From: Trissonchulus latispiculum | Lineage: Eukaryota; Nematoda; Enoplea; Enoplida; Ironidae | Length of the DNA stretch: 64,000 bases | Assembly: GCA_030248195.1 (NCBI GenBank) | Contig: JASAND010030257.1 | Span: forward strand, 1-64,000 | Reading direction: 5' to 3' | Shown: piece by piece, positions 22,980-52,325 of the stretch | How positions within the stretch are numbered: the stretch's first letter is position 1 | How the letters are laid out: the number at the start of each line of letters is the position of its first letter | Made by a program: the position numbers and the translations under genes | The notes under the pieces: model-generated | Database searches by the model: none | What the model saw: only the letters and a program-made list of their open reading frames with translations | Told to the model about the DNA's origin: nothing

Positions 22980-25900
22980 TTACACAATAGCATAATGTCC
23001 ATAGGCATAGGAAGATATCCCATCATCAAGAATATAACGTTTATCATCAAACGCAGATAAGCTTATTTTATTAGATTTGATTGAAAAAATTTTATGCTTA
23101 TCGCTTCTGATCATATACATTATATCCCGACGAAAATCACCGTTAAACAAACAATTAATAAAATCATCATGACGGAGTACATTATTAACAACACATTTTT
23201 TCACTCCCTTTCCCCGTTTCTTCTCAACACTGTTACACACAAAACTGTACATTTTGGCCCGTAGGCCACAAAATTCAGAAATTGGACTACCCGAAGTCTA
23301 ATCCTTCATTTTGCCGATAACTTTTTTGTTTGTGATAGAATACAAAGGATGATCCCTCGGATAATCACTAAAATCAAAAAGATTACAGTCAGAAGACAAA
23401 TCAGCATATACATCATCGCATTCTATATAATAACAAAGACTGTCTGTATCTGTAAATAACAGCTTTACACAACTACCATACTTTTGCACAATATGGTTAT
23501 AATGAAAGTCGTACATAAGTAGCTTTGACAGCTCAAGTACAGTAAAACCTACATAAATAGGTTTATTGAGCTTGACGGAACCCCGATTCAAACAAACTGC
23601 TGCCAACTCCTCACTGAATGCAGTAGCCCGCTGAAAGCGAGGATTGGAAACAAGCTTGCGGAAACGAGTCTGTTCATATACCAACTCAACATTCATATAA
23701 CGACGAACATTTTCCATTGTTTTCCCAAAAACCGCATTATTAAGTAGCTTAAACAAGTTCTTTTCAAAATCGGAATTAGCCTTCTGTCGCATCTCAGTAT
23801 TAAAACTGATATATGGAAGCATCCAGGCTTTTTGACGAAATGCCAGAACGCGGTGCACACGCTCAAGTTTTAGACCCAAAGACAAATACAATTTTAAATT
23901 ACGAAAATGGATTATATAGTTTTTCTTATTCCAAAGATTGGGAACGAGCTTATGCACCATACCAGATTTAACACCATTATGCGACTTCAGCGCTTTACAA
24001 TACGACGACAACATAACATCACTAATTAACATTTTTTCAGGAGCCAATGGGTAAGTGTTATGCAAATCATGCAGTTCTTTTGGGTACCCCAAGTCGACTT
24101 CCAAAACGTAACCCTCCTCACCCTCCACGTCAACCGTATCCCAAGAAATTTGATTAATTTCGGATTGAGAAAGCCAACGAAAATTGGCATACGGTTGTTT
24201 TTGGCTCATTGCCCAGCCATACAAGTTATTAGCATCAAGATACAGTATATGCGAATTAGGCAATGATGAATCGAAGTTCGACAAATAGGGGCTATTAGCT
24301 TGAGCATAGCGATGAGATATCATAGCCACACCTCCACGAATGCCTTGCTCAAAGAACATGTACTGGTTGGCATCTTGGAGAAGCTCCAATCGAATATCTG
24401 TAAGCTTAAGGCATGCATCCCATGCAAAGCTAGGCAGGGTAATGTAATGAATGGGATCCAGACCGTAGTGCTGCAGACAGAAGGTTCTGAAGTTCTCAAA
24501 GACGTCTGCTAATAGCAAAGTGTCAGTAAGGAGGTATAAATCATAATATTCTCCAAGGTTGTTTAAATTGAAAGAGTTCCAAACAACTTGAGCATGCTGA
24601 TAATCACCATCCGAAATATGTTGTCCTGCTAATCCGTTGTAGAAAGCAGTTTTGGGAGGAAGAGTCGTCTCCTGGAAACGATCCCAGCTGTCCATATAAT
24701 CATAAGGGTAAACTCCCTTCCGAATAAGTAAGTTTCTTAGCAGATGATTGGGTATGTTTTCAGATAAAATCGATAGTTGATCCGTGCTTAAGTTATCAGC
24801 AAGTGTACTTAGGGAAGCCATCAGGAACTGATAACTGTCAATAAATCTGATACTCCAGGATCTGTTGACATATCTAGGTGTTTGTTCACCCTGCCGGCTT
24901 GGACTGTCATCAGAGTTATTTTCACTCCTCATCATTTGTTTCACAGAAAAGCTTAAATAATCCTCCGTTCCTTTAGCAATAACATTTAGCTGAAGCTTAT
25001 TCCTTTTGCAGAATCCAGCTATCTCTTGCATAATCAAGTGCCCATCATACCGACGAAGATTATGCATTACCACAGTGATGTCCCGATTTAATCGATACAA
25101 TTGGTTACATTTATTGTGCGCAGGGCCTCGATATGCCCCACATAGATGACAATGATCTCGAACTCTATCGATGTCGAGCTGTTTCTTGCAAAGATGACAA
25201 TGAAAAGCTGCCTTGTAGCAGTCTTCTTCTTCAGTTGTCAGGTGGAGTGGAGCAGCATGATTTAAATCGTTGTTGTGCTCTTCAGCAATGCAGATAACTT
25301 CATTAAGAAACTTTTTGACACAGTCATGCCCTCTGTAAACGATCGGGTTTCCAAGCTTTCTTGTATCCGCTTCGCAACACTGCCGAACTGTAATTAGACC
25401 AAATCCACACGGTGTATGTTGTTGATAGGCTGTCGTATGAGAATTTAACAGACTTGGTTGACAGGTCTGAATTGCTTCGGTAAGGCATTCAAAGTCAGCA
25501 TAGATTACCGTTGGTGCACGGAGTCGTCGATGATGATTTCGAAACATAAGATTACTTTCGTCTGGCATAACGATCTTGGCTGGACTATTATTTAGGCATC
25601 GGTCCACATGATCCTTCAGTTTCTTCTCAGTATATTGAGGCAGCAAGCATCTTCGACAGAAATACTTCTGCTTATGTCCTCCTCGTTGATCGCTCAGTAA
25701 GCGATCAAGATGCTTGATCCAACAGTAGTGACCCTTATACATCAACAGATCAACATGTCGCTCATATTTACGTTTAGATATGTATATGGGTAAAATGGAT
25801 TGTCCTTCCAGCCCAAACAAGTTCACAGAAATCCCGTTTTTTTGTTCAAAACGAGGGATAGCATTTACGCTGATTGGCATATCCAGCTCTGCTACGTTTA

Positions 25901-26828
25901 ATTCTTGTTCATAAGGCTGATACTTGTATACCAAGTTAGGATTATTCTTTCTATTCACAGGGTATAAGGCCGACAATACAGCCCAGAGAAAGCACTTGTT
26001 GTCACTATTTCTCACGTTGATTACAGCTCGTTTTGCTTCTATCCAGCTTGGAAGCTTCTTATAAGATGAGCCTTTTGGTGGTCGGTGAGCAGCAACGTGA
26101 ATATCTAAATGCAACACTTCTTCTACTGCCCAATCTGATCCAAGCTGTATGAACGTTTCCAAGTTATTATTTACTTCTTGTTCAGCAGCAGATAATTCTT
26201 CTCGTAGCTGTGATTCAAGCTGTGCATCCTTAGCCTTACAGCAAAAATGTGACTCAATTTTCTGCTCTGGTTTCGTAGTTCGATACAGACGAATTCGCAT
26301 ACATAACCAGAACTTTAGCCCAATCATACGTTCACATTCACGTGTTAATACATCAACTATTTGACCATAGGATTCGGCAAAGAAAACATGCAGATCACCA
26401 ACAAAACTTTTTGGCTTTATTTGATATCCCCGCAACCAACCGCGAAATGACTGAGTCAACGGGACTACATCATATTGAGAAGGCATCTCCTGCAACTCTT
26501 CATCAGACTCAATCCTGCTATCATGTTCACCATCAGGAGTCATTGACATGAGATGGACCGCTTCTTGGTCTTGTTTACTCACTGTACGATGTTGATGTTC
26601 GCTTTGATTCAGGTGATCCGCAATCTCAGAGGCCCTCTTTTTGGGACATGGTTCCAGTGCAGATCCTTGATGAGCAGTTAAATGCCTTTTGAGTATATCT
26701 TTTCTCGACAGTACTCGTCCACATTGATCGCAGGGGAAGGCCATTTTATCGTGAACTGATTCGATATGACGTTTTAAGTTCCTTTTGGACTGAAGTTTAA
26801 GGCCACAGATATCACAAGTAGCAGCCAT
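22980..26828 (-). pseudogene. Protein-primed family-B DNA polymerase, left copy, with one in-frame TAG
   Basis: This is the replicative polymerase of Polinton-type elements. From ATG at 26828 the protein begins with two C2H2 zinc fingers (CDICGLKLQSKRNLKRH and CDQCGRVLSRKDILKRH). A Cys/His-rich region, exonuclease motifs YADFECL (about 25.5 kb), NLRRYDGHLI and LLTDTLLLADVF, polymerase motif A DANNLYG (about 24.2 kb), motif B-type NNAVFGKTMENVRR and motif C FTDTDS (about 23.45 kb) follow. An in-frame TAG lies at 23298-23300. The same frame continues for 105 codons through the expected C-terminal SxxHKIF and DDKRYIL signature to TAA at 22980. The family signature beyond the TAG shows it is a break or a recoded codon, not the natural end. 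Otherwise the gene is intact. Confidence 0.9.
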
Positions 26829-27091
26829 GTTCTGAAACAACGACATCAGATATAAGCTTGACCCGTCCACTCTACAATATCCGTAAAAAGGAAACACCAA
26901 CAATCGTTAATCAAAATTACTCTCTCACAGTAGCAAAACCTTCACAAAATTAGACGATGAATCAAATGGAAAGAATTATTTGTCAGATTTATGAACACCA
27001 CTATTAAATAACAAAGCTCAAAGCTTTACCTTCTGCTGCGACCGATTCCAGACATGAATATGAGACTAAATGATTCAAATGAAAATATTCA

Positions 27092-27939
27092 CCCTTTTAT
27101 ACTTTTTGCCTCAAAACTATTCTGAAATCCCATTGGTTGAATATATTATGCTGCAATTTGATTGGATAAAAAGGTCACGTGACTGATATTTTTCAAACTT
27201 TAAAGCTTCTAACAGCCAACGAAGGTTAGCAAACTTTATAATTTACACCAGTGTTCAATGAAAATAACAAAAATCAGTCCGATGCCAGACTCAGCACCGC
27301 AAGGCAAGTCTTGACTGCGACTGCAACTTACATTGGAAAAATCAGTTGACTTTCCTATCGACTTCGGCACCAAATCCATAAAGACATCGAAGGCTAAGTG
27401 ACTTCAATTCCACCGAATAACGAGCAACTGACGAGTCGATGCAAAACAACAGTCTTATATAGTTGAGCAATTTGCCCGAGGACAAATACTTCGGAGTATT
27501 ACAAAAGTCCCTTTCTGACGAAAGTTTGTATGTTCAACACATGAAAATTCCAAGGGTTCTTGCTGTACAAAGGTGGGGACTGGCACCAAAATTTAAGGTC
27601 AGTTGAATTTACTGTGACTAATGTTATTAATGAACCTTGATCTCCAGTTTTACCAGTACAAAAACCTGTTTCTGGTGCGCCACCAACCTGAGAACACTTT
27701 AACAATTGTCCTGACGCAACTACTGCTGGCTCCTCAAAATTGGCAATAAAGGTAGTAACACGGTATCTGACGCAATACTTGATGGAATTTTATGATTTTT
27801 TAACACAATAGGTATTTTTAAAAGATATTTACACTGGTGTCATCAGATTTGAGCTATGCTAATGTCTGAGTGAGATACAAGCCGTGCTAAAAACGGTTGC
27901 ATTTTAATAGCCTCAAGGCATTTCTGAATTTTTTGAAGG
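27092..27939. repeat. Left arm of 1.7-kb near-palindrome
   Basis: 848 bp is the inverted partner of 27964-28820, with a 24-bp spacer. Identity is high, with few substitutions and small indels. The arm lies just upstream of the polymerase start, where a Polinton terminal inverted repeat would lie. Confidence 0.85.
27094..27103 (-). promoter_or_regulatory. TATA box upstream of the left polymerase
   Basis: GTATAAAAGG on the minus strand is 265 bp upstream of the polymerase ATG, at the outer edge of the palindrome arm. The same box is kept at the mirror position in the right arm. A 5' UTR intron is possible because TTGTTTCAG precedes the ATG. Confidence 0.45.
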
Positions 27940-27963
27940 CATGAAAAACAGAACTGTTAAACT

Positions 27964-28820
27964 CCTTCAAATTTTTGCAAACTTTCAGAAATGCCTTGAG
28001 GCTATTAAAATGCAACCGTTTTTAGCACGGCTTGTATCTCACTCAGACATTAGCATAGCTCAAATCTGATGACACCAGTGTAAATATCTTTAAAAAATAC
28101 CTATTGTGTTAAAAAATCATAAAATTCCATCAAGTATTGCGTTAGATACCGTGTTACTACCTTTATTGCCAATTTTGAGGAGCCAGCAGTAGTTGCGTCA
28201 GGACAATTGTTAAAGTGTTCTCAGGTTGGTGGCGCACCAGAAACAGGTTTTTGTACTGGTAAAACTGGAGATCAAGGTTCATTAATAACATTAGTCACAG
28301 TAAATTCAACTGACCTTAAATTTTGGTGCCAGTCCCCACCTTTGTACAGCAAGAACCCTTGGAATTTTCATGTGTTGAACATACAAACTTTCGTCAGAAA
28401 GGGACTTTTGTAATACTCCGAAGTATTTGTCCTCGGGCAAATTGCTCAACTATATAAGACTGTTGTTTTGCATCGACTCGTCAGTTGCTCGTTATTCGGT
28501 GGAATTGAAGTCACTTAGCCTTCGATGTCTTTATGGATTTGGTGCCGAAGTCGATAGGAAAGTCAACTGATTTTTCCAATGTAAGTTGCAGTCGCAGTCA
28601 AGACTTGCCTTGCGGTGCTGAGTCTGGCATCGGACTGATTTTTGTTATTTTCATTGAACACTGGTGTATATTATAAAGTTTGTTAACCTTCGTTGGCTGC
28701 TAGAAGCTTTAAAGTTTGAAAAATATCAGTCACGTGACGTTTTTACCCAATCAAATTGCAGCATAATATATTCAACCAATGGGATTTCAGAATAGTTTTG
28801 AGAGAAAAAGTATAAAAGGG
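27964..28820. repeat. Right arm of 1.7-kb near-palindrome
   Basis: Inverted partner of 27092-27939. Homology stops just after its TATA box (28810-28819) and resumes only at about 29158 within the polymerase gene. Confidence 0.85.
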
Positions 28821-29157
28821 ATGTCGAGAAAAGTTATACTCAAAAGTGTGCTACATTTTACTGCTCATCAAGAATGTCAAAACGGGGGGGGCCAGGACTA
28901 AAGGGGTGGAGATTGTGAGGCCCCGTGGGGGCATTGGGAAATGGGGTTGAAAAACTAATTTAGAAGAGCCAAGGGGGTGGGAGCCGGTGGGGGAATAGAG
29001 GTGAGCCTATTGGTAGGTGGAGTAGATTAGTTGTCGAAAATGTTTAAAGGAGAATAGGAGAAAAAGAGAAATGTAAAAAGAAAAAATGAGGGGGGGGGGG
29101 GATGAGGAAGGGGGAGATCTGCACTGGATGGGTTATCAACTTTCATGCTCCCAAAGT
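28821..29157. other. G-rich sequence replacing the start of the right polymerase copy
   Basis: About 330 bp of purine-rich, G-run sequence unlike the left copy stands where the zinc-finger start of the polymerase should be. An apparent ATG-less frame runs into the polymerase but has no family similarity. Confidence 0.6.
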
Positions 29158-30967
29158 GAAGACGGCCTCTGAGATTGCGGATCACCTGAATCAAAGCGAA
29201 CATCAACATCGTACAGTGAGTAAACAAGACCAAGAAGCGGTCCATCTCATGTCAATGACTCCTGATGGTGAACATGATAGCAGGATTGAGTCTGATGAAG
29301 AGTTGCAGGAGGTGCCGTCTTTTCAATATGATGTAGTCCCGTTGACTCAGTCATTTCGCGGTTGGTTGCGGGGATATCAAATTAAGCCAAAAAGTTTTGT
29401 TGGTGATCTGCATGTTTTCTTTGCCGAATCCAATGGTCAAATAGTTGATGTATTAACACGTGAATGTGAACGTATGATTGGGCTAAAGTTCTGGTTATGT
29501 ATGCGAATTCGTCTGTATCGAACTACGAAACCGGAGCAGAAAATTGAGTCACATTTTTGCTGTAAGGCTAAGGATGCACAGCTTGAATCACAGCTACGAG
29601 AAGAATTATCTGCTGCTGAACAAGAAGTAAATAACAACTTGGAAACGTTCATACAGCTTGGATCAGATTGGGCAGTAGAAGAAGTGCTGCATTTAGATAT
29701 TCACGTTGCTGCTCACCGACCACTAAAAGGATCATCTTATAAGAAGCTTCCAAGCTGGATAGAAGCAAAACGAGCTGTCATAAACGTGAGAAATAGTGAC
29801 AACAAGTGCTTTCTCTGGGCTGTATTGTCGGCCTTATACCCTGTGAATAGAAAGAATAATCCTAACTTGGTATACAAGTATCAGCCTTATGAACAAGAAT
29901 TAAACGTAGCAGAGCTGGATATGCCAATCAGCGTAAATGCCATCCCTCGTTTTGAACAAAAAAACGGGATTTCTGTGAACTTATTTGGGCTGGAAGGACA
30001 ATCCATTTTACCCATATACATATCTAAACGTAAATACGAGCGACATGTTGATCTGTTGATGTATAAGGGTCACTACTGTTGGATCAAGCATCTTGATCGC
30101 TTACTTAGCGATCAACGAGGAGGGCATAAGCAGAAGTATTTCTGTCGAAGATGCTTGCTGCCTCAATATACTGAGAAGAAACTGAAGGATCATATGGACC
30201 GATGCCTAAATAATAGTCCAGCCAAGATCGTTATGCCAGACGAAAGTAATCTTATGTTTCGAAATCATCATCGACGACTCCGTGCACCAACGGTAGTCTA
30301 TGCTGACTTTGAATGCCTTACCGAAGCAATTCAGACCTGTCAACCAAGTCTGTTAAATTCTCATACGACAGCCTATCAACAACATACACCGTGTGGATTT
30401 GGTCTAATTACAGTTCGGCAGTGTTGCGAAGCGGATACAAGAAAGCTTGGAAACCCAATCGTTTACAGAGGGCATGACTGTGTCAAAAAGTTTCTTAATG
30501 AAGTTATCTGCATTGCTGAAGAGCACAACAACGATTTAAATCATGCTGCTCCACTCCACCTGACAACTGAAGAAGAAGACTGCTACAAGGCAGCTTTTCA
30601 TTGTCATCTTTGCAAGAAACAGCTCGACATCGATAGAGTTCGAGATCATTGTCATCTATGTGGGGCATATCGAGGCCCTGCGCACAATAAATGTAACCAA
30701 TTGTATCGATTAAATCGGGACATCACTGTGGTAATGCATAATCTTCGTCGGTATGATGGCCACTTGATTATGCAAGAGATCGCGGGATTCTGCAAAAGGA
30801 ATAAGCTTCAGCTAAATGTTATTGCTAAGGGAACGGAGGATTATTTAAGCTTTTCAGTGAAACAAATGATGAGGAGTGAAAATAACTCTGATGATAGTCC
30901 AAGCCGGCAGGGTGAACAAACACCTAGATATGTCAACAGATCCTGGAGTATCAGATTTATTGACAGT
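29158..30967 (+). pseudogene. Protein-primed family-B DNA polymerase, right copy, truncated at both ends
   Basis: About 600 codons are nearly identical to the left copy, from KTASEIADHLNQSEHQHR-type sequence through YADFECL (about 30.3 kb) and NLRRYDGHL to FIDS. At about 30967 homology ends and a repeat begins. The zinc fingers, exonuclease III and all polymerase motifs A-C are missing, so this copy cannot make a polymerase. Scattered amino-acid differences from the left copy show it is a separate copy, not an assembly echo. Confidence 0.9.
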
Positions 30968-31275
30968 AGTAGTATAGGTCAGCACAAATGGGACCTGTTT
31001 GTACAGGTGTATCTTTGGAGGAGATATAGGGTCATTAATCATACAGGTAAGGTCATTAATCATGGAGGCAGATGTTCTCAAGGTCATTATTGGCCAATTT
31101 TGCCTTTAGCTTGGATAAGCTTGTTTGTAACATTGTACTAAATTTTTAACACAGTGTTATTGGACTATGTTGTCTTCGTATGTAACTTCACCTACGTATT
31201 TGTCTAGTGCCTACCTATTTAACTAGTTAGCTTACCTGCCGAGTTAGAGTTTATTAATTAACGACCTAATTAAGT
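30966..31275 (+). repeat. Direct repeat copy 1 interrupting the polymerase
   Basis: About 310 bp is repeated in the same orientation at 35613-35935. It contains GGACCTNTTTGTACAGGTGT, short tandem units of GGTCATTAATCATACAGGTAA, and the shared tail AATTTTTAACACAGTGTTATT. No terminal inverted repeats are seen. Confidence 0.7.
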
Positions 31276-31595
31276 AATATGAACATTACATATTGCATGC
31301 CACAATCATCACACGTGATCACGTAAACTAAGTTATGACTCTTGCAAGTCGCAGGCATAACCGTAGCGGGTGTACATACATTAAAGTTAATATTATTATA
31401 GTAGCTACTAAATTGTGATCCATTCATATAAAGTTGGCAGCATTTACAGTTTTTCTTATTGCACGTCCTACCAGTACTAACTGCTAAGCTGTCCAGTTTA
31501 TCTCCGTTCACAATCATGCAATCTTCAGTGTCGACATGTACCAGATTAGTTGAAAGATTAGGGATGTCGGAGTCGGCGTTCGTGTGCAGGTCCAA
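31266..31595 (-). pseudogene. Penelope-like retroelement fragment (Cys-rich linker before a GIY-YIG domain)
   Basis: The minus-strand frame encodes CNKKNCKCC, FSSYYNN and then a CKSHNLVYVITCDDCGMQYV segment. This C-x-K-x-C-x-C pattern followed by VVYxIxCxxCgxxYV is typical of Penelope-like elements at the start of the GIY-YIG endonuclease. The frame breaks immediately after YV and no reverse transcriptase is visible nearby, so this is a fragment. Confidence 0.6.
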
Positions 31596-34152: not shown

Positions 34153-35612
34153 CCCGCCACAGCCACCGCCTGGACCTTTCCTCAAATTCCAAGAGACGCA
34201 GCACAGGGATGGAAACAGTGTGTTGCATCTTTGACACTGACTCTCATGTAAATAATAAGATGGACGAGTGAATGCCGTGCCGCGAGTGGGATGTTGCGTA
34301 ATTTCGGGTTTCGGGCAACTCCCCACCCATCCATCCGGAATCTTGACATGCTATTCAGAAACTGACATGTTTTACTGATCCTTCCTATCTGAATTTGCCA
34401 TGGCGCTGTATGTGTACTGAATCGAATTTGCAGAAATAAGAAAGGGATCAAAAATAGTAAAATTTTGAATATAAATCTGAGATTTTGTAAGCGTATTTTG
34501 GGCAGTCAACTGAAAATCAGAATTAAACTGACGTTGGTTTAAATAAAAAACTGACATCCCGACTGGAATGTAAGTTTTAGTCTTTTCTCGAAATAACACC
34601 GAACCTGGACGCAGAACGTAGAGACAGAGCTATATATATGCAGGTGTAAATCGGTTATATGTATTTTGATCATCCCATATTGGACTATTAATGAACCTTA
34701 TAATATTATAATTTGTACCTGAAATACTTAAAGGACGCTAATTAAGTCAAATCAAAGATGAAAACAAAAGAATTGTTGTCAGTGCAATGCTACAGCAAGT
34801 TTTAAAGGAGGGGAGATACTTTGTGCATGCTTTGGCAATTTTACCATAAGGAACGAAAAGCAAAACAGTGGAAACGATGCGATTATAATAAAGTAACGAA
34901 AACCGAAAATGAGAAAATAGGAAGCGGGAGAAATAAACATACAAGTATAACAAAAGTAACTAATGACTGGTGCAGGTGACTGGGATTGTTGGTGAGTATG
35001 AGGGATTTCACAATTAGTAAATCCAAAATCAAGATTCAGTACTCACAAATTTAAAGAAGTACTGAATCTTTCGGTCCCAATCCCTGAGATTCATACTTCA
35101 GAAAATTTATGAGTACCAATAAGGTTGATTGGGGTGGGTGCCGAAATCCGTCATCAGAGGGATCCAGTATTTTCGTTAACTGCAAATAGAAACATCTCGC
35201 TTCATTTAAGTTATACTGGTTGGGCCAAGCCTCGAAGAGACCCGAATTTCGGTCTTTTAATTTGACATGTTTGTCAAATTGCAGACGGGCTTCTGTAAAT
35301 TTTGTGGGGAGGAACTGACTTAATGACTCTATTTACGCTTGATTAGTTTTCAAGTGGCACCCAACTGGGCAGCTTGAACACTGACTGCAGAACGAAAAGG
35401 AGAGAGGCCACTACTTAATGACCTTTGTACTTCTCTCCCCATAAATTTTACATCTTCAATATTAGGAGTTCAGCAAATTAACAAACTGAAATATTAAATT
35501 TTTTAGTTTGATAAGGGAGGACCAACGGGAACCGAACTGAATTCGTCAGCCTCCAGTATGCACCCATGCAAAATTTTAAAGTTATTGGTCAAAAAATTAA
35601 AAGTTAGGAGTA
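34153..35612. other. Non-coding stretch
   Basis: No gene is recognised. Near 35545-35610 there is a fragment of the foldback MITE seen at 13249-13866, including the GCATGCACCC-type arm sequence. Confidence 0.4.
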
Positions 35613-35935
35613 GTATAGGAGCCGACAGATGGGACCTCTTTGTACAGGTGTATCTTTGGAGGAGATATAGGGTCATTAATCATACAGGTAAGGTCATTAA
35701 TCATACAGGTAAGGTCATTAATCATCGGGTGCAGATGTTCTCAAGGTCATTGTTGGCCAATTTTGCCTTTAGCTTGGATAAGCTTTGTAACATTGTACTA
35801 AATTTTTAACACAGTGTTATTGGACTATATTGTCTACGTATGTAACTTTACCTATGTATTCAACTAGTTTGTTTACCTGCCTAATTAGTGTTTATTAATT
35901 TATATGTCTAATTAAGTACGTAAATTAATTAAGTA
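35613..35935 (+). repeat. Direct repeat copy 2
   Basis: Same orientation and content as 30966-31275, with one extra GGTCATTAATCATACAGGTAA unit. The two copies bracket the Penelope fragment and the unidentified spliced gene. Confidence 0.7.
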
Positions 35936-36214
35936 ACATTTTCAAACTTTTTTCAAACTTTTTTATTTACCTGACTGTTTGCCAATGGTGATAGAGTCTT
36001 ACCTATCTATCTCAGCATCGTATAGACCAAAAATATTATTGCAAAATTTTCTTCCCGTAACAACTAAAATTTTCTTTTCCTGCATTTCCTTATATATGAC
36101 ATCTGGACCTTTGTATTAACCTTGAAACGGAAGGAGGGAAACGAACACTTAAAGAAGACAAGATTGTTAGTTACGTACTTCAGAATACACTTTAAATATC
36201 TTCATTTAAAATTT

Positions 36215-36545
36215 TCTCCCTGCTAGCTGCCTTCTAGTGTTAGCATATCTTTAGCATACTGAGGACTCAAAGCTGTCAAAAGTCTTTCTCTCCCTGCTTG
36301 TTTAAAATTTTCTTCCCCTATTAGCTGCCTTCTAGTGTTAGCATATCTTTAGCATACTGAGGACTCAAAGCTGTCAAAAGCCTTTGTCTCCCTGCAAGCT
36401 GCCTGCTAGTGTTAGCATATCTTTAGCATACTGAGGACTCAAACCTGTCAAAAGCCTTTCTCCCTGTTTGTTTAAAATTTTCTTCCCCTGCTAGCTGCCT
36501 TCTAGTGTTAGCATATCTTTAGCATACTGAGGACTTTAACCTGTA
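36215..36545. repeat. Tandem repeat of about 75-100 bp, four copies
   Basis: Each unit contains GCTGCCT(T)CTAGTGTTAG, ATATCTTTAGCATACTGAGG and usually CAAA(G)CTGTCAAAAG. One unit is shorter because the TTTAAAATTTTCTTCCCC part is missing. Confidence 0.8.
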
Positions 36546-36599
36546 TCTCAAAGCTTACCAATTCGCCTTACCTAGTTTGATTGCACCTGTCTCATTGAA

Positions 36600-37310
36600 A
36601 TTAAAGACGTAAACAATAAACATTGGTTGAAAATGAAAATTTTATGTCTCCAATTACGTAATATTGGCAGCACTTATCACTTTAATCTTTGTGTCTACGT
36701 AAAGAGCAAACAATAAACTAACTTCGGTCAACTAATTTGGATTAGTAGTTAACTAATTAGTTAATAATAATTTATTAAAGTTAACTATGAAAATTGGCTG
36801 AAAATGGGTGATTATAATTGTATGTCTCTAATTACGTAAAATTGGGAAAATTTGTTGGGATGATTTTGGTTTCTACGTAAAGAGCATGTGTTGAACTAAC
36901 TTATCACCAGCTAGTAATTATTTGTTGGCTAGTTAGTTAGTAATAATTGGTTAAAGTTGACTACGAAAATTGGCTGAAAATGGGTGATTATAATTTTATG
37001 TCTCCAATTACGCAAGATTGGGAAAACGTTACGTGATAAGTTTTATGTCAACGTAAAGGGCAAACCATGAACCAACTTCGGTCAACTAATTTTGTTTAGT
37101 AGTTAGCTAATTAGTTAGTAATAATTTATTAAATTTAACTATGGCTGAAAGTGGGTGATTATAATTTATGTCTCCAATTACGTAAGATTGTTGACACATA
37201 TTCGGTTAATTATGGTGCCTGTGTAATAAAGTAATAATGAACTAACTTCGGTCACCTGTTGATAATTATAGGTTAACTAATTAGTTAATAATTAATTAAA
37301 GGTGACTCGG
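36600..37310. repeat. Tandem repeat of about 170-180 bp, four to five copies
   Basis: Units share TATGTCTCCAATTACGTAA, CTAACTTCGGTCAACTAAT and AGTTAGTTAATAATAATT-like phrases. Starts recur near 36640, 36820, 36998 and 37168. Copies are diverged. Confidence 0.75.
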
Positions 37311-37526
37311 AAAATTTGTGTGTAAAGAAAATATTGTTACATAGAACTTTTGGTACCAAGACAATACAACTTTTGTTCAATAATTAATGAACAAGGGTAT
37401 ACAAAATTGATGTATGTGTATTTTATGAAACCTAGCACAAGAATGCTGCAAAGTTTAGACATATATTGCAAGTTTGGCAGGTTTATTAACCTTACTGACA
37501 TTTGAATCACCATACTTTACATCATC

Positions 37527-38227
37527 ATGAATTCCGTTGAAGCCGGTAAGATATTTAATTGTAGCATTTTTAAAAGTTGTATTTTTAATGATTGCATTTT
37601 AGTAGTTGGATTTTTTAGTCGTTCAAATTTTGATCGTTTCGTTTGTTAGCAGTTGTACAGTTTGAACATAGTTTTTAGATTAGCATTATTTGTTGTGTGA
37701 AAATTATTACTTATGCTTCAGGTTCACCATCTGTGGAGAAGATTATTGACAATTTGGTCATACTTTGTGATGAAATGGATCCCGCTACAGTGGAAGACTA
37801 TATGGTTGAACATCAGCGCATAACCCCGGATTATCGAGATATCATCAAGTCCGAAACAAGATACGATGGAGTGTTTGATCTCCTACTGCGACTAAAGAGG
37901 AGCAAAGATATAGTGCCCCTGCTCCACGAGGCCTTGGTGAAGTCGAAGCAGTACAACCTAGCCAAACTATTCGAAGGAGGAACCAAGGAGAAAGGAGTCA
38001 CGTGGAAGATTTACACAAAGAGCAAATATTTGCTAAGAGAAAGCCAGGACACCTTCCCTACGGTACAAGCAGCGAGACTGGGCGCAGCGATGGCCCTTGG
38101 ACCCTTGGGATGCGACAACCGTGCCGTCGTATTCATCGAATGGATTGGAAATTCTATGGTGAAACAATGGAATGTGCCGGAATGGTTCGTATCCCCATGG
38201 AATCACCAAGACTGTAAAAACCACTAA
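37527..38227 (+). CDS. CARD-like (death-fold) protein gene with one intron
   Basis: Exon 1 is 37527-37545 (ATG, six full codons plus one base, donor GTAAGA). Exon 2 is 37722-38227. Splicing joins them as a Gly codon and gives 174 residues. Residues of about 10-90 (VEKIIDNLVILCDEMDPATV to SKQYNLAKLF) form a six-helix pattern with CARD-type spacing: a leading helix with NL, an IT-type turn, DLLLRLKR, and a final AL...YNLAKLF. CARD domains mediate caspase-recruitment and innate-immune assemblies. The C-terminal 80 residues (WKIYTKSKYLL, EWIGNSMVKQW) are unrecognised. Next to a TBP homologue and a packaging ATPase it looks like element cargo acting on host death or immune signalling; that is an inference. 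Confidence 0.55.
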
Positions 38228-38540
38228 TATTAACACACTATTAACACTAAAGACACTATTGACAATTACATGCTAATGTACAGTAAACCATTGACTATTA
38301 TTATTATTGCATAACACTGTAAGCCATTATTATTGAATAACAGTATTGTATTGCATAATCACTGTAAACCATTGACTATTATTATTATTTTATGGTATTA
38401 TTATTATTATTATATGGTATTACTACTGTCCAGTAAACCATTGCATAACAGTATTGTATTGCATAATCACTGTAAAAATGTTGCATACAGTAAACGAAAT
38501 GTTACGGATAACATTAGTTGCACTGTAGGTAGGTAGGCAG
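38228..38540. repeat. AT-rich direct repeats
   Basis: The phrase GCATAATCACTGTAAACCAT and TATTATTATT runs recur three to four times. No gene is seen. Confidence 0.5.
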
Positions 38541-38927
38541 TTAGCCATGAAAAAACGGATTTTTAAGCATTTCTGCTTCTAGCCTGTCTAGCATATTGTA
38601 GATAGGTTGAATACTTCTGCGATATCTTTTGTACTCACGTAGGTCCCTCATCTTATCCCTGACTGCATCAATTTCGTAGATATGAGGTCTTGGTGGTAAT
38701 CCGCATTCACGTCTGATGAGATGTTCGTCGCCGTGACATAACGTACCGTAGGCTTTACAAGACACCTCCTCAATGGCAGTACGTGGGTCAGGACATTGTG
38801 AGCTAGTCCATGTCTTACTGCCGATACTCATGACGGCAACATAATGGCCGGTAATCTCAATGCGAATAGGCGGACTTTGGCGCAGGGCCTTTTGTAACAG
38901 TTCGTTCAACAGGCTTCGCGCAGACAT
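38541..38927 (-). CDS. Small protein with a possible dsRNA-binding-like fold
   Basis: There are 128 residues with an ATG 6 bp after the TBP stop. Residues of about 4-62 follow helix (SLLNELLQKALRQ), three strands (IRIEITG, YVAVMSIG, KTWTSS) and helix (PRTAIEEVSCKAYGTL), the order of a dsRNA-binding domain. The conserved KKxAK of the second helix is absent, so this is a weak structural guess. The C-terminal half is a basic helix region (REYKRYRRSIQPIYNMLDRL). Co-orientation and tight spacing suggest one transcript with TBP. Confidence 0.5.
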   Translation of the reverse strand: MSARSLLNELLQKALRQSPPIRIEITGHYVAVMSIGSKTWTSSQCPDPRTAIEEVSCKAYGTLCHGDEHLIRRECGLPPRPHIYEIDAVRDKMRDLREYKRYRRSIQPIYNMLDRLEAEMLKNPFFHG

Positions 38928-38933
38928 GATGCA

Positions 38934-39428
38934 CTAATGAAGTTTAAACCTTATCACCTTCTTATTAACTAAAGACCTTGCATCTAATAGGGCAGACTCA
39001 CTTCGAGCACCAGTTAATATGACCTTGCCAGTGTGGAAGATAAGTGCAGTAACCCCGGCAATCTTACACGTGAGACCATTAAATAGCTCCGGTTCATAGC
39101 AAACTTGATGGGTATGCCTGATACTTTCATATAAATCCCTTAGGTCTATATACCTGCCAAGTGAGAAGGATCCCACCAGGTTCACCACTTCGCCTTCGCG
39201 AAGAATACCGACATTAAGTGCGCCTGCAAGTTGACGAATACACTGTTTAGCTCGTTCGATTGATTTACATCCGAGACAAACAAAACTACCACTCGTGAAT
39301 AATTGGAAAGTTGCCTCCTCGTGTTTCAGACTACCGCCAATAAACCCACGATAGAGTCTAATGTTAGGAATGTTCGTTAGGTGAAGTTCCCTGTCAAAGC
39401 GTCCACTGAGAACAACATTAACAATCAT
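38934..39428 (-). CDS. TATA-binding protein (TBP) homologue in the Polinton-like cluster
   Basis: 164 residues cover the two-fold repeated TBP core with no N-terminal extension. Repeat 1 (about 1-75) has GFIGG, ATFQLFTSGSFVCLGCKS. Repeat 2 (about 80-160) has VNLVGSFSLG, YEPELFNGL and ALIFHTGKVILTGARSE, which match the TBP signatures YEPELFPGL and SGKVxLTGAK. The four Phe expected to wedge into the TATA minor groove (GF, LF-TSG, LF-NG, IF-TG) are all present. TBP nucleates transcription initiation. A short, diverged, intronless copy beside a packaging ATPase suggests an element-encoded initiation factor. The next ORF starts 6 bp after its TAG. Confidence 0.85.
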   Translation of the reverse strand: MIVNVVLSGRFDRELHLTNIPNIRLYRGFIGGSLKHEEATFQLFTSGSFVCLGCKSIERAKQCIRQLAGALNVGILREGEVVNLVGSFSLGRYIDLRDLYESIRHTHQVCYEPELFNGLTCKIAGVTALIFHTGKVILTGARSESALLDARSLVNKKVIRFKLH

Positions 39429-39491
39429 TGTTATCCCCTTGGTATCCTGTCCCTCACTTATTAATGTGGAATACTAAGGTATCGCCTCACG

Positions 39492-39501
39492 TCTATAAAA
39501 A
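39492..39501 (+). promoter_or_regulatory. TATA-like box ahead of the membrane-protein ORF
   Basis: TCTATAAAAA lies about 105 bp upstream of the ATG at 39600 and in the upstream region shared with the divergent TBP gene. Confidence 0.35.
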
Positions 39502-39599
39502 TCATGGTAGTAGGGCTAATACAAAGACGGCATCTAAATTCTATGGTAATAAGAAGCGAATAGAGGTACTGTTAAAGTGCGCCGTACAAGATCCTGACT

Positions 39600-39974
39600 A
39601 TGGCTACTGGTGCAAATTCCCAAGAAGGGTATTCCTTTTTAAACTATACGAAACTCCAATTGGTCAAAGGAGTTCCCTGTATAATCACAAGCCTTCTCAT
39701 AAAATTTTTATTGTCTACGATTGTATTAGCGATTTTGTTGTCACAGCATACCCTGTGTAAACTACCACCACTGAAGGATTCCGTCACGGTAGACAATGCT
39801 ATCTTTATTCATAATGGTTGGACTGAGCACCTTGTATCACTTGATAGTTTTCACGAGATCCGCCAATTCATCTACAATTGTCTAAACTTCCAGTGCCCTG
39901 TCTATATTAACGGATCTATTCCATGTCCCTACACGTCCACATATAACGAGACAACTCTGCCTGGATCAAGATAA
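39600..39974 (+). CDS. Small membrane protein, function unknown
   Basis: There are 124 residues from ATG at 39600. A hydrophobic segment at about 25-50 (IITSLLIKFLLSTIVLAILL) is a clear membrane helix. It is followed by a 75-residue domain with three Cys and two N-glycosylation sequons (NGS, NET), fitting a lumenal or virion-surface side. Divergent from TBP and followed in the same direction by the ORF at 40096. No family is recognised. Confidence 0.5.
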   Translation: MATGANSQEGYSFLNYTKLQLVKGVPCIITSLLIKFLLSTIVLAILLSQHTLCKLPPLKDSVTVDNAIFIHNGWTEHLVSLDSFHEIRQFIYNCLNFQCPVYINGSIPCPYTSTYNETTLPGSR

Positions 39975-40095
39975 GCGTGTCCTTTGTGGCTTTGTTGGTC
40001 CTGTCAGTTTTACAGCAGACCAGATATACCAGCTCTATAGTCAATAAGTAGGCCTACGATACTGGTGTAAATACCACTATTCCATATATTGCACC

Positions 40096-40311
40096 ATGGG
40101 TATCTATAAGGCACTCCAGAGCCTGATCCGCCTCAGCCGCTACCACAAGAATAAATGCAGACGATATCCGAGGCAAAAGATAATCATTTCTATTCCTGGC
40201 ATTGGATGGCGACGAATTCTACATGTCGATATGAAGCAACTGATCAATGAAGATGAAGTAGTCGAAGAACTTATTCTCGATGATGAAGATATAATGGATA
40301 CTACTAAATGA
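40096..40311 (+). CDS. Small basic-acidic ORF, function unknown
   Basis: There are 71 residues with ATG in a good context (CACCATGG). The first half is very basic (RLSRYHKNKCRRYPRQK) and the end is acidic (EDEVVEELILDDEDIMD). An AATAAA lies at 40423. Co-oriented with the membrane-protein ORF and the ATPase. No family is recognised. Confidence 0.45.
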   Translation: MGIYKALQSLIRLSRYHKNKCRRYPRQKIIISIPGIGWRRILHVDMKQLINEDEVVEELILDDEDIMDTTK

Positions 40312-40422
40312 TGATGATACAAATACCACGAAGAATGATATGAAGACAGATAACGAAGAGTGAACAAATTTGACACTATAGTGACTATTGTGTATGTAAT
40401 ATTGTATTGTGTTTTGCACTAC

Positions 40423-40428
40423 AATAAA
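40423..40428 (+). terminator. Polyadenylation signal
   Basis: AATAAA lies about 110 bp after the stop of the 71-residue ORF and just before the ATPase start. Confidence 0.45.
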
Positions 40429-40463
40429 GTCATATAAACAGCGTTGGTGTTTTCATAGTAAGT

Positions 40464-41143
40464 ATGGAGAGAGTTAGGACACCAAAGTTTCAGCATCCGT
40501 TCACTTGTATCGTGGCGGCTCCAACAAAGGCAGGAAAGACCACCTTTGTGTCACGACTGGTAGAGCATGCAGATGAAATGATCTCAGAACCACCTGAAAA
40601 GATTATACTGAGTGGCAAGATGCATATGATAGACTTTCCCAGGTAGAATTTATCAAAGGTCTACCGGATCTAGAGAAACTGAAAACCCCTGACGCAAAAT
40701 TGGTAGTACTTGATGATCTGATGAGCGAGATTAAACAGCAACCTAACCTTGTTCAACTGTTCACCCGCGGTTGTCACCATTGGTCTTGCAGTGTCATCAA
40801 TATCACTCAAGACATATTCTACGATAGGCAGCGGACTAATAGGATAAATAGTCAGTATATTGTCCTCATGAAGAATCCAGCCGATAAGCTAACCCCGATG
40901 AACTTGGCAAGACAAATGTATCCAGGTAGAGTGAAAGGATTTATGGAAGCTTTTGAGCATGCCACCAGTAGACCACATGGATATCTACTGATAGACCTAG
41001 ACCAGAACACACCAGAAAAACTCCGCCTACGAGGGCATATTTTCCCTGATGATTCTTACACCGACGTATATTCCATAAAAACTGACAATATCAAGAAAGA
41101 ATATTTTAGCATGCCGCTTTCGGCTACAATCTATTCTAGCTAA
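40464..41143 (+). pseudogene. FtsK/HerA-type genome-packaging ATPase, frameshifted
   Basis: From ATG at 40464 the frame gives FTCIVAAPTKAGKTTFVSRL, a Walker A P-loop near residue 20, and runs to about 40610. There an indel moves the reading into another frame. That frame continues with LVVLDDLM (Walker B), an NITQDIF segment (sensor-like) and a C-terminal part ending at TAA 41143. Polinton and adintovirus packaging ATPases have this order and a total near 230-250 residues. The original frame stops at 40644. AATAAA follows at 41193. The rest is uninterrupted, so inactivation looks recent unless the base run is a sequencing error. Confidence 0.85.
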
Positions 41144-41198: not shown

Positions 41199-41560
41199 AA
41201 ATTTATCCCCCCCCCGGACTTCGGTCCAAACCGCCCCCCCCCTGAAAATTTTTTGTATCTACGCTACTGACCACGTCTCACTTTAAACAACATCTCTTGT
41301 ATTTTTAACCAAGACAATTTATATTAAACCAACATTGGTTGGTTGGCTTGGTTTTTGCAAACACTACAAAGACTACCACCTCTCAGTTTAAACATTTCTT
41401 CTATTTTTAGCCAAGCCAAACTATATTAAACCAACATTGGTTGGTTGACTTAATTTTTACGGACAAAATAATTTTCTCTATTTTTAGCCAAGCAAACTTA
41501 AAACTAAGCCAAGTCCACAGGCATGAATATCTTACCCAAATTTCCTTTGCTAGGATTTCA
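41199..41560. other. Non-coding junction with short direct repeats
   Basis: C-runs (CCCCCCCCGG) mark the likely edge of the element. CCAACATTGGTTGGTTG and CTATTTTTAGCCAAGC-type phrases are then repeated two to three times. Confidence 0.45.
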
Positions 41561-43330
41561 CAATCCGGCCCGAATTAATAATTTTATGTTTTGGGCCGGA
41601 TTTCCACTAAAACACGGCCCGAATTAATAATTTTGACTTCTGGGCTGGGTTTTCACTAAAACCCGGCCCGAATAATAATTTTATCTTTTGGGCCGGATTT
41701 CCACTAAAAATAGGCCCGAATTAATAATTTTATGTTTTGGGCCGGATTTCCACTAAAACCCGGCCCAATTAACAATTTTAACTTTTGGGCCGGGTTTTCA
41801 CTAAAACCCGGCCCGAATAATAATTTTATGTTTTGGGCCGGGTTTTCACTAAAACCCGGCCCGAATTAATAATTTTGACTTTTGGGCCGGGGTTTTCCCT
41901 AAAACCCGGCCGACTTAATAATTTTATGTTTTGGGCCGGGTTTTCACTAAAACCCTGCCCGAATTAATAATTTTGACTTTTGGGCCGGGGTTTTCCCTAA
42001 AACCCGGCCGACTTAATAATTTTATGTTTTGGGCCGGGTTTTCACTAAAACCCTGCCCGAATTAATAATTTTGACTTCTTGGCCGGGTTTTCACTAAAAC
42101 CCGGCCCGAATAATAATTTTATATTTTGGGCCGGATTTCCACTAAAACCCGTCCCGAATTAATAATTTTGACTTTTGGGCCGGGGTTTTCCCTAAAACCC
42201 GGCCGACTTAATAATTTTATGTTTTGGGCCGGGTTTTCACTAAAACCCTGCCCGAATTAATAATTTTGACTTTTGGGCCGGGGTTTTCCCTAAAACCCGG
42301 CCGACTTAATAATTTTATGTTTTGGGCCGGGTTTTCACTAAAACCCTGCCCGAATTAATAATTTTGACTTCTTGGCCGGGTTTTCACTAAAACCCGGCCC
42401 GAATAATAATTTTATATTTTGGGCCGGATTTCCACTAAAACCCGTCCCGAATTAATAATTTTGACTTCTGGGCCGGTTTTCACTAAAACCTGGCCCGAAT
42501 AATAATTTTATCTTTTGGACCGGATTTCCACTAAAATCCGGCCCGAATTAATAATTTTATGTTTTGGGCCGGATTTCCACTAAAACCCGGCCCAATTAAC
42601 AATTTTAACTTTTGGGCCGGGTTTTCACTATAACCCGGCCCGAATAATAATTTTATGTTTTGGGCCGGGTTTTCACTAAAACCCTGCCCGAATTAATAAT
42701 TTTGACTTCTGGGCCGGGGTTTTCCCTAAAACCCGGCCGACTTAATAATTTTATGTTTTGGGCCGGGTTTTCACTAAAACCCGGCCCGAATTAATAATTT
42801 TGACTTTTGGGCCGGGGTTTTCCCTAAAACCCGGCCGACTTAATAATTTTATGTTTTGGGCCGGGTTTTCACTAAAACCCTGCCCGAATTAATAATTTTG
42901 ACTTTTGGGCCGGGGTTTTCCCTAAAACCCGGCCGACTTAATAATTTTATGTTTTGGGCCGGGTTTTCACTAAAACCCTGCCCGAATTAATAATTTTGAC
43001 TTCTTGGCCGGGTTTTCACTAAAACCCTGCCCGAATAATAATTTTATATTTTGGGCCGGATTTCCACTAAAACCCGGCCCGAATTAATAATTTTGACTTC
43101 TGGGCCGGTTTTCACTAAAACCTGGCCCGAATAATAATTTTATCTTTTGGACCGGATTTCCACTAAAATCCGGCCCGAATTAATAATTTTATCTTTTGGA
43201 CCGGATTTCCACTAAAACCCGGCCCGATTTAATAATTTTGACTTCTGGGCCGGGTTTTCACTAAAACCCGGCCCGAATAATAATTTTATCTTTTGGGCCG
43301 GGTTTTCACTAAAACCCGGCCCGAATTTGT
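41561..43330. repeat. Satellite of about 47-bp monomers with GC-rich inverted ends
   Basis: About 1.77 kb of tandem units of the form AATTAATAATTTT-(ATGTTTT or GACTTCT)-GGGCCGGGTTTTCACTAAAACCCGGCC. Each unit contains GGGCCGG and CCGGCCC separated by short AT-rich loops, so every unit, in either phase, can fold. Two monomer types (ATGTTTTGG and GACTTTTGG) alternate over long stretches, giving a higher-order period of about 94 bp. Roughly 35-40 units. Confidence 0.9.
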
Positions 43331-49484: not shown

Positions 49485-52325
49485 GATCTGTCACCCTCGG
49501 AGAAAAACCATTCTCGATTGCCGACTTGTTGGCTTACAAACGCTACATCCTTACGTAACAAAATTGCAGAATTGAGACTACGTGTATTTGAAGCGGAATT
49601 AAAACCTGTTTGTATTTTTGTTACTGAAACGTGGTTTTCTGTAGGTGAAGATGACGGATCATGGGCAATTCAGGGTTATTTATTATATAGAAGGGATCGT
49701 ACTGGTCATGGAGGCGGGGTTGCCGTATACGTAAAATCAAGTATTAGACACTCTTTTTTACAGGATATTTCAAGTGTAAATTGTGAAAGCCTGTGGATCG
49801 AGGTAACTTTAAGAACAGAAACTTATCGTTTTGGACTTTTTTATCATTCTCCTACTCCTGGTATGTCTAATATTGAAAATGTTCTGCGTAATATGACCTC
49901 TGGTATTACTGGTAGTAGAAATGTAATTGTTCTTGGTGATTTCAATGTGCCGAATATTAACTGGACGGTTCCAATTTCTCACGGAGGTGACGCACAAACG
50001 TTTTTGGATTTTTGTTTAGATAACAGTCTAAAACAATTTGTTAAAGAACCAACTTCGGTTATTGCACCGTTTAATATTCTAGACCTGATTTTAGGAAATT
50101 CACCTTATTGTATTAGAGATATTACCGTAAACCCACCCTTGGGTTGTAGTACACATAACGTTTTGGAATTTATGTTGAATCAAATTGATGATGTTGATGA
50201 GCATGTAAGTATGTATACTTATGATTTCACTAGGGCACGATATAGAGACATTGCTGTATTTCTACAGTCAATAGACTGGCATTTTTTGTTCGGTTTATGT
50301 AACACTATTGATGACTTGTGGGAAGTATTTGAAAATGTTTTGAAGGAGGCAATGAGGCTTTTCGTGCCTTATCGTGCTTTTAAGAAAAAATTTGCATTTC
50401 CAATATCTAGAAAAACGAAACGTCTCTTAAACAAAAAGAGAAGGAGCTGGGCAAAGTTTAAACGATCTAGACTTGCTGAGGATCTGGCGACTCACAAGCT
50501 AGATAACAAAGCACTTTCGAAAGAGATTCATTCCGACCAAGTCAAATTTGAAAATGGTTTGGCAAATAGACAGAACTTAAAACAATTTTATTCTTATGTC
50601 AAAAGTACTTTAAATGGACGTGATGAAATTATTATGCTAAAAACACCAGAAAATGTTGTTTTGGGTGATCCTTGTGAAAAGGCTAACTATCTGAACCAAA
50701 CTTTTGTATCTGTATTTGTGGATGATGATAATGTAAATGTTCCATTCAATATGAGGACTGATAATGTAATGGAAGATGTATTGTTTGATGAAGAAACTGT
50801 ACTTTCTGCCCTTAAACGACTACCGCTGAAGAAATCTAGTGGTCCCGACGACATACCACCTATTTTTCTTAAAAAAGTAGCACATGAAATTGCATCTCCT
50901 TTATCTCAAATTTTTACTAAATCATATACTACCGGTCTCATTCCAAAAAAGTGGAAAGCTGCAAATGTGTGCCCAGTTTTTAAAAAGGGCAACAGAAGTG
51001 ATCCGAAAAATTATCGTCCGATAAGCTTAACAGTGGTGTGCTGCAGAGTAATGGAGGGGATAATAAAAAGTCAGATGATGAATCATTTAGAAACACAAAA
51101 TCTCATATCTTCTGTACAACATGGATTTCGAGCTAAAAAATCTACAGTTTCTCAGATGTTAATAGCTTTGACTGAAATATCACAAATATTGGATAAAGGC
51201 AACTGCGTCGATATAGTCTACATAGATTTGGCTCGTGCGTTTGATACAGTTTGCCATTCGAAATTAATTAAAAAATTAAAATGTTATGGTTTCCCAACCA
51301 AAGTTGTGAATTGGATCAGTCAACTTTTGTCTAATAGAAAACAACGCGTGAAATTAGCTTCTTCGTACTCAAATTGGGAAGACGTTAAAAGTGGGGTTCC
51401 ACAGGGTTCTGTTCTAGGCCCATTGTTGTTTTTAATATTCATTAACGATTTACCTAACTGCATCAATAATTCTAGTATAAAATTATTTGCAGATGACGCA
51501 AAACTTTATAAGGGAATAAGCAACGTCCAGGATCAGATGCAGATGCAATCTGACTTAGATAGTGTTGTGAGATGGTGTTTGCAATGGCAGTTATCGATAT
51601 CTGTGACTAAGTGTTCTGTGCTTCGTGTTTTTCCTCACGGTGTTCGTAAGGATAGCTTCTATTTACCTCATGGTTACGTGTTGAATGGAGCTGAGCTCCC
51701 TTTTGCGAATAGTGTTACTGATTTAGGTGTTGTGATGGATGAACGTTTAGATTTTTTCCACCATGTTGCTAAGACAAGATCTAAAGCTGCAAAAAGAGCT
51801 GGTTTAATTTTCCGTGTTTTTCGATGTAGAAACAGGGAATTTCTGAAGAAGATGTTTGTTGTGTATGTAAGACCTATCGTAGAATATGCAACTGAAGTTT
51901 GGAGTCCGCGTTTCTTGCGTGAAATTAAAGCCATTGAAAGTGTTCAACGGTCTTTTACTAAAAGAATTAGTGGGTTGTCCAGTTTATCATACAACGATCG
52001 TTTGAGTATATTAGGTTTAGAACGTTTAGAACTAAGACGAATTGTTACTGACATGTGTAGTTTGTACAAGATTGTTCATAACTTGATTGATGTACCTTTT
52101 CATTCTATGTTCAATTATGCGAATGATATTGGCGCCCGGAGGCATTTCTTGACGTTGCAGCCTTCCGGTTTTAACAGATTACATACAAAGTACTTTTTTC
52201 ACCATAGGGTTTGTGAAATATGGAATGAATTGCCTGTTGATGTTGTAAGCGCTGGTTCTGTTCATATCTTTAAGCGCAAGCTCGATTCAAACAAAGACTT
52301 GCTTACGAGGTTTCTTCGAGGGTGA
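49485..52325 (+). CDS. Retrotransposon ORF2: endonuclease and reverse transcriptase
   Basis: This 946-codon frame is uninterrupted. The N-terminal endonuclease shows the Asn motif (CWLTNATSLRNK), TETWF, a GHGGGVAVYV stretch and VIVLGDFNVPNINW. The RT has SSGPDDIPP, VFKKGNRSDPKNYRPISL, YIDLARAFDTV, GVPQGSVLGPLLFLIFINDL and FADDAKLY, followed by the thumb and a C-terminal part lacking RNase H. The frame starts directly after the ORF1 TAG and has no ATG before the endonuclease motifs. A first in-frame ATG appears only inside the endonuclease (SPTPGMSN). Translation probably depends on readthrough or re-initiation. Confidence 0.92.
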   Translation, partial: DLSPSEKNHSRLPTCWLTNATSLRNKIAELRLRVFEAELKPVCIFVTETWFSVGEDDGSWAIQGYLLYRRDRTGHGGGVAVYVKSSIRHSFLQDISSVNCESLWIEVTLRTETYRFGLFYHSPTPGMSNIENVLRNMTSGITGSRNVIVLGDFNVPNINWTVPISHGGDAQTFLDFCLDNSLKQFVKEPTSVIAPFNILDLILGNSPYCIRDITVNPPLGCSTHNVLEFMLNQIDDVDEHVSMYTYDFTRARYRDIAVFLQSIDWHFLFGLCNTIDDLWEVFENVLKEAMRLFVPYRAFKKKFAFPISRKTKRLLNKKRRSWAKFKRSRLAEDLATHKLDNKALSKEIHSDQVKFENGLANRQNLKQFYSYVKSTLNGRDEIIMLKTPENVVLGDPCEKANYLNQTFVSVFVDDDNVNVPFNMRTDNVMEDVLFDEETVLSALKRLPLKKSSGPDDIPPIFLKKVAHEIASPLSQIFTKSYTTGLIPKKWKAANVCPVFKKGNRSDPKNYRPISLTVVCCRVMEGIIKSQMMNHLETQNLISSVQHGFRAKKSTVSQMLIALTEISQILDKGNCVDIVYIDLARAFDTVCHSKLIKKLKCYGFPTKVVNWISQLLSNRKQRVKLASSYSNWEDVKSGVPQGSVLGPLLFLIFINDLPNCINNSSIKLFADDAKLYKGISNVQDQMQMQSDLDSVVRWCLQWQLSISVTKCSVLRVFPHGVRKDSFYLPHGYVLNGAELPFANSVTDLGVVMDERLDFFHHVAKTRSKAAKRAGLIFRVFRCRNREFLKKMFVVYVRPIVEYATEVWSPRFLREIKAIESVQRSFTKRISGLSSLSYNDRLSILGLERLELRRIVTDMCSLYKIVHNLIDVPFHSMFNYANDIGARRHFLTLQPSGFNRLHTKYFFHHRVCEIWNELPVDVVSAGSVHIFKRKLDSNKDLLTRFLRG

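Follow-up and report, generated by a model that had tools for sequence, protein, structure and literature searches.

The question raised by this stretch of DNA, the first 64,000 nt of contig JASAND010030257.1 from the nematode Trissonchulus latispiculum (here called the window, at its full length), is why a compact Polinton-like cluster of small genes at 37527..41143 should contain a gene for a TATA-binding protein (TBP), and what that protein might do for a mobile element. The analyses presented here demonstrate that the TBP gene is real, that it is linked to Polinton genes, that the arrangement recurs and that the gene is under purifying selection. We read the cluster as the left portion of a decayed copy belonging to a high-copy Maverick/Polinton family whose length is estimated at about 15 kb, and sequence comparison leads us to favour, with some reserve, a role in which the selected TBP would recruit host TFIIB and RNA polymerase II (Pol II) to element promoters.

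The TBP gene and its Polinton family

The first-pass annotation, made from the sequence alone, had placed a two-repeat TBP core at 38934..39428 on the minus strand, and profile searching bears this out: the open reading frame (ORF) matches PF00352 in two stretches (E 6.4e-29; 100.1 bits, where the cut-off is 22.9), and each of the 35 PDB entries that it matches at E<=1e-3 is a TBP or a fusion containing one. Its identity to human TBP is 29% (158 columns), as against 84% between human and Arabidopsis TBP. A protein search with it returned 136 candidates, none at E<=1e-3, and a six-sequence TBP tree left viral TBPs without placement. The EPELF segment, which we take to be the stirrup that contacts TFIIB, is intact in the window TBP; it is also present in the TBPs of two loci described below (L001 and L004) and in 10 of the 11 family rows aligned, with ELELF in L065. 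The accompanying claim that all four intercalating phenylalanines are in place proved too strong: three (F44, F116 and F131) are unambiguous, but the first aligns as Tyr26 or, with the gap shifted, as Phe29. Repeat 2 retains both of its phenylalanines, which TBP needs in order to bind DNA.

TBP matches in the window's own genome (733.8 Mb; 21,732 contigs) number at least 151, a lower bound because 150 of the 874 candidates were scored; identity ranges from 57 to 100% among the rows listed, the majority of which are free of internal stops. The same order recurs, namely CARD-like gene, 128-aa gene, TBP, small ORFs and ATPase. Matches were found in the 30 best loci for the CARD-like gene (27), the 128-aa gene (30), the 98-aa (30), 124-aa (28) and 71-aa (27) ORFs and the ATPase (26), and the ATPase and TBP always lie on opposite strands in the 26 loci that have an ATPase start, with 1035–1130 nt between the two starts. 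Ten diverged copies (TBP 61–91% identical) retain the gene order, several of them with breaks or lost pieces.

Mean pairwise ratios of nonsynonymous to synonymous change (dN/dS) were calculated among close copies that were gapless and at least 95% covered, out of 30. They are 0.121 for TBP (30 copies; biased low, because the copies were ranked by TBP similarity), 0.072 for the 128-aa gene (27, one with a stop), 0.054 for the CARD-like gene (23), 0.047 for the 124-aa ORF (27), 0.132 for the 98-aa ORF (27, with little synonymous change) and 0.091 for the 71-aa ORF (26). The small genes of the cluster are thus under purifying selection (dN/dS 0.05–0.13). Between subfamilies the TBP ratio is 0.09–0.30, with synonymous sites often near saturation. 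When 1000 Markov surrogates were made of the 3.65-kb region, 0.7% contained a stop-to-stop frame of at least 164 aa; because of this rarity, together with genome-wide recurrence under purifying selection, the cluster is more than chance, and a reading of its genes as chance neighbours is rejected.

That the cluster is Polinton-like and has its own TBP, as first proposed, is strongly supported by what lies beyond the ATPase. Ten 9-kb flanks were sampled from ten copies, five on the ATPase side and five on the CARD side. All five ATPase-side stretches carry matches to PX, LO, a retroviral-type integrase (in the L047 copy, rve at 5.9e-15 and chromo at 7.3e-10), a protease (PRO), a capsid-like ORF of 454 aa, a 153-like ORF and two further ORFs, 257 and 268 aa long. 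The protease matches the PRO of L004, itself a Peptidase_C5 (3.4e-05), at 35% in all five; the family's own PRO has no Pfam match at E<=0.05. The capsid-like ORF is 29% identical to an ORF at a like place in locus L002, and its DJR-like_dom match (0.017) falls below the cut-off. In two of the five (L047 and L050) pPolB comes next, matching PF03175 at 8.5e-11 in L050 and at 3e-4, below the cut-off, in L047; the corresponding region of the window copy lies past its break. At pPolB's place L046:7369-8187, L048:1442-2293 and L049:1517-2287 show an opposite-strand frame that matches the zinc-finger part of pPolB, shown in L046 by Pfam as C2H2 fingers, and the element copies may come in two forms, one with pPolB and one with a C2H2 zinc-finger ORF. 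With pPolB, chromodomain integrase, A32-type ATPase, PX, protease, capsid-like gene and an AGTAGT end, the element resembles known Mavericks/Polintons (adintoviruses); it differs from them in that one of its ends bears TBP together with a CARD-like gene.

TBP in other Polintons

Apart from the own-genome copies of this family, TBP stands beside Polinton genes in a second family of the same genome, in L001, in L004 and in two more contigs of the latter's source. An ATPase-alignment scan of GTDB genome contigs returned ten loci (L001–L010), all in bacterial metagenome-assembled genomes (MAGs), in which these Polinton contigs are presumably eukaryotic contamination. Two of the ten carry TBP. L001 resembles the window in having TBP on the minus strand and the ATPase on the plus strand at a distance of about 1.2 kb, and PX follows. 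L004 (13.4 kb) encodes pPolB, ATPase, PX, an integrase with chromodomain, Peptidase_C5, TBP (5.5e-37) and dUTPase, and its MAG holds two further TBP contigs, PRO adjoining TBP in each. At L004:11200-11206, TBP and a 264-aa gene stand head to head with their ATGs almost touching, and relatives of the 264-aa gene adjoin TBP in the two other contigs. The eight loci without TBP comprise seven of 3.1–11.8 kb and L009, of 20.6 kb. No relative was found by six viral_contigs scans, made with the ATPase piece, the ATPase alignment, TBP, pPolB and two TBP alignments.

A query with human TBP found, in the window's own genome, a host-type TBP in two pieces (87 and 78% identity) on contig C14517, and many further TBP-like frames at about 26–40% identity. 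Among them are frames 26–36% identical to human TBP, some of which lie inside open frames of about 400–411 or 406 aa. The second TBP family of this genome, represented by L066, has the end of an ATPase, PX, LO, NADAR, TBP (3.7e-36) and capsid-like matches on one strand; its NADAR domain gene (L066:853-1442), between LO and TBP, consists of two overlapping frames. TBP is therefore found in three arrangements: it is divergent from the ATPase in the window family and L001, lies within the structural module in L066 and follows PRO in L004. A tree of 63 ATPase rows was built from proteins of 195 aa or more, taken from the first 60 listed and six named ones, with eight window or locus rows and omitting L007, L009 and L010; in it the window and L001 belong to one clade of 25 rows with support of 98/99, and L004 is far off.

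Candidate promoters and a proposed role of the element TBP

The best candidate for a site of action is the TATA-like box CATATAAA at 40431..40438 on the plus strand, 33 nt before the ATPase start. By script, the pattern [CT]ATATAA[AG] was found 33 or 37 nt upstream of this start in all 26 close copies and 25–58 nt upstream in all seven wider stretches that include the start, the element forms being CATATAAA/TATATAAG. By eye, the box was seen in 13 of 13 rows, the stricter TATA[AT]A lying only farther up in L056 and being absent from L062. No TATA[AT]A occurs in the 70 nt before TBP in any of 10 rows, in six of which the aligned first codon is not ATG; as its own start has no such box, the first TBP could be supplied by host factors. 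The window, L001 and L004 together have 23 gene starts, of which five show TATA[AT]A at −60 to −20 where 1.2 would be expected (p 0.0035, for a range chosen post hoc), and all three ATPases are among the five. Among seven ATPases in loci where no TBP was seen, TATA[AT]A is found at the first ATG in one, and at the second ATG in L006. Over 69.5 kb, 28 occurrences of the TATA-like motif were counted on the element-sense strand, compared with 8 on the opposite one; two motif places per copy lie within coding sequence ahead of the next gene, which coding constraint may explain.

We suggest that, once made by host factors, the element TBP would bind TATA-like boxes in the element, above all the one before the ATPase, and would recruit host TFIIB and Pol II through its EPELF stirrup. 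We infer the use of host components because no RNA polymerase was seen among the annotated ORFs, no dedicated search having been made for one. The ATPase is the first gene of the long morphogenesis module, and TBP would then switch on the packaging and capsid genes, giving an early–late switch.

Other explanations of the same gene have to be considered. Retention of EPELF beside an altered repeat 1 would also suit a host-shutoff decoy, a protein that titrates TFIIB or host promoters and does not serve element promoters; given the conserved TATA-like box before the ATPase and a repeat 2 that keeps both phenylalanines, as DNA binding requires, we consider this unlikely, though still the strongest of the alternatives. 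Lower in probability stands a structural or replicative role, in which the TBP fold would bend DNA at element ends or origins and take no part in transcription. The location of TBP toward the end of the window-family element would fit, as a matter of position and not directly, but in L066 the gene sits inside the structural module, ahead of the capsid-like gene, and the TFIIB-contact segment is conserved in most rows.

Homology to TBP would in itself be expected of a processed copy of the host's gene, or of a host gene beside a Polinton insertion. Both are excluded, as the host-type TBP on C14517 is 87 and 78% identical to human TBP and the window TBP 29%, far below the human–Arabidopsis figure; at least 151 matches, a fixed order in the 30 examined loci and a like TBP linkage in other sources speak in addition against them, and we give the pair almost no credence. 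Two outcomes had been named beforehand as fatal to the first proposal, a TBP-like ORF that is just a processed host copy and a lack of TBP–Polinton linkage in every relative; both were checked, and neither was borne out.

Several observations nonetheless weigh against an element TBP that serves element promoters. Its repeat 1 is about 8 residues shorter, with the first intercalating phenylalanine uncertain, and the L066 TBP has TPEAF in place of EPELF. The 20.6 kb of another Polinton in L009 are without TBP, which is therefore not universal in Polintons. The TATA positions were examined post hoc, the ATPase ATGs are predicted, and the window, L046 and L047 copies are near-identical; the ranking of copies by TBP protein similarity pushes the TBP dN/dS downward, the neighbouring genes being not directly affected. 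To the broader proposal we give even weight: that TBP is a recurrent working Polinton gene, gained or moved more than once, which would provide element-specific initiation with host TFIIB and Pol II and an early–late switch, and that several TBP-bearing families have multiplied in this genome, where over 100 element TBP genes would stand against the single host-type TBP found.

Neighbouring genes, element ends and known systems

For the CARD-like gene (37724..38227, plus strand; putative first exon at 37527) the proposed death-fold assignment is moderately supported. The ORF is open to 38227, and five of 13 family members match PF00619 (Caspase recruitment domain) at E<=1, below threshold; the best of these, one homologue, aligns over profile positions 2–82 of 85 (E 0.0034) but reaches 17.8 bits against a cut-off of 23.9, the window copy matches no Pfam family, and the protein has an extra C-terminal half. 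Other weak Pfam matches in the family are to an ARM model (0.0045, two members) and DUF2490 (0.09, four members). Against PDB, the family profile places designed helical filaments at the top (best 2e-5), which are taken as helix coincidence; it also matches the designed protein 7vty, which is related to the Apaf-1 CARD, with E 2.7e-4 across 84 residues, and the closest natural relatives of 7vty are Apaf-1 (1e-12) and CED-3. A homologue search gave 29 candidates, none at E<=0.01. We hold a CARD identity with moderate confidence on these profile likenesses, and the gene, at the element end, is probably a host-interaction gene; the element might, as first suggested, interfere with host death or RNA-sensing pathways. 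Two CARD-like frames stand in tandem at the element end in L056:6551-7712 (45–47% identical to the window's) and L064:6430-7526 (37–42%).

The 128-aa gene (38541..38927, minus strand) is on TBP's strand and starts 6 nt past the TBP stop. The suggestion that it encodes a double-stranded RNA-binding protein is rejected: no dsRBD match was found at E<=1 in seven members, nor in PDB at E<=10 (homologues from L060, L061, L063, L064 and L065, which have internal stops, were omitted from the alignment). Single-sequence structure prediction performed poorly for both the CARD-like protein (pLDDT 38) and the 128-aa protein (pLDDT 49), and fold searches with the models gave nothing at E<=0.001. On the plus strand, a 98-aa ORF (39464..39760) overlaps the following 124-aa ORF (39600..39974), which has a membrane-type segment, in agreement with the membrane protein noted at first, and no Pfam match; a 71-aa ORF (40096..40311) comes after them. 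The A32-type packaging ATPase is likewise present (40464..41143, plus strand) but in the window copy is split over two frames, a Walker A piece at 40464-40646 and a remainder open from 40598 to 41143, with one frame change between 40598 and 40646. Of 135 candidates for the second piece, 125 are relatives at E<=1e-3, and some of these match Pox_A32 (PF04665); the L046 and L047 copies have open ATPase frames of 228 aa, and the L047 protein alone has no Pfam match at E<=0.05. ARAGORN found no tRNA, and no PHROGs family matched below E 0.08.

The left end of the element, outside the cluster, is at 35609..36191 (plus strand) and consists of the terminal motif AGTAGTATAGG and a putative terminal inverted repeat. 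The shared end AGTAGTATAGG occurs in all five CARD-side flanks, the blastn match starting at 35609 in three, at 35592 in one and at 35689 in one; four of these flanks matched none of the query genes, and in the fifth the sole match was to the end of the CARD gene itself. The AGTAGT end motif is present at window position 35609 and in all five flanks; PMC8097293 describes it as the 5' end motif seen most often in vertebrate Mavericks. One of the five ATPase-side stretches has, at its far end, an inverted match to 36064-36191 (L048:29-154), and from this one copy the terminal inverted repeat would be at least about 580 nt. Subterminal direct repeats (36191..37316; 71–93% alike) have similar counterparts in other copies' CARD-side flanks. 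The window copy is without its right end.

A second copy of the terminal sequence (30968..31276, plus strand; 79% identity over 337 columns to 35606-35918) abuts a truncated pPolB of another Polinton family. This second-family pPolB forms a palindrome at 22980-31141 with arms 98–99% alike, the left arm (23298-26906) having an in-frame stop and the right arm being truncated at 30967. It is rejected as part of the element, its protein being 41–44% identical to the TBP family's pPolB and its right arm ending at the terminal copy. Directly past the element's broken end is a minisatellite (41503-43330; unit about 49 nt), and a frame of the LINE (long interspersed nuclear element) type with endonuclease and reverse transcriptase is open at 49518-52325.

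Virus-encoded TBPs have been described in larger systems. A megavirus encodes one (PMC11464507), and giant viruses are alike in this respect; they differ in having their own RNA polymerase subunits and TFIIB, of which none appears among the ORFs annotated here, where no dedicated search was made. In mirusviruses TBP is a core gene found in 59% of genomes (PMC10132985); they too carry TBP, but with genomes of up to about 430 kb and other morphogenesis genes, in contrast to the small Polinton here. No report of a TBP-bearing Polinton was found in the open literature searched, a scope that does not show absence from print. Term searches found no TBP mention in PMC11071296, PMC11071308, PMC10120064, PMC4642659, PMC12220804, PMC8097293, PMC10328495 or PMC4028283, and no TATA mention in PMC8363768.

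If the proposed role is correct, a core promoter-recognition factor carried without an RNA polymerase by a small integrating element would represent a new mode of Pol II takeover. It would bear on how Polinton-type elements are related to giant viruses that have more complete transcription kits, and on one way in which divergent TBP paralogues might originate. With more than 100 natural TBP variants that have candidate boxes nearby, the co-evolution of TBP and DNA becomes directly testable.

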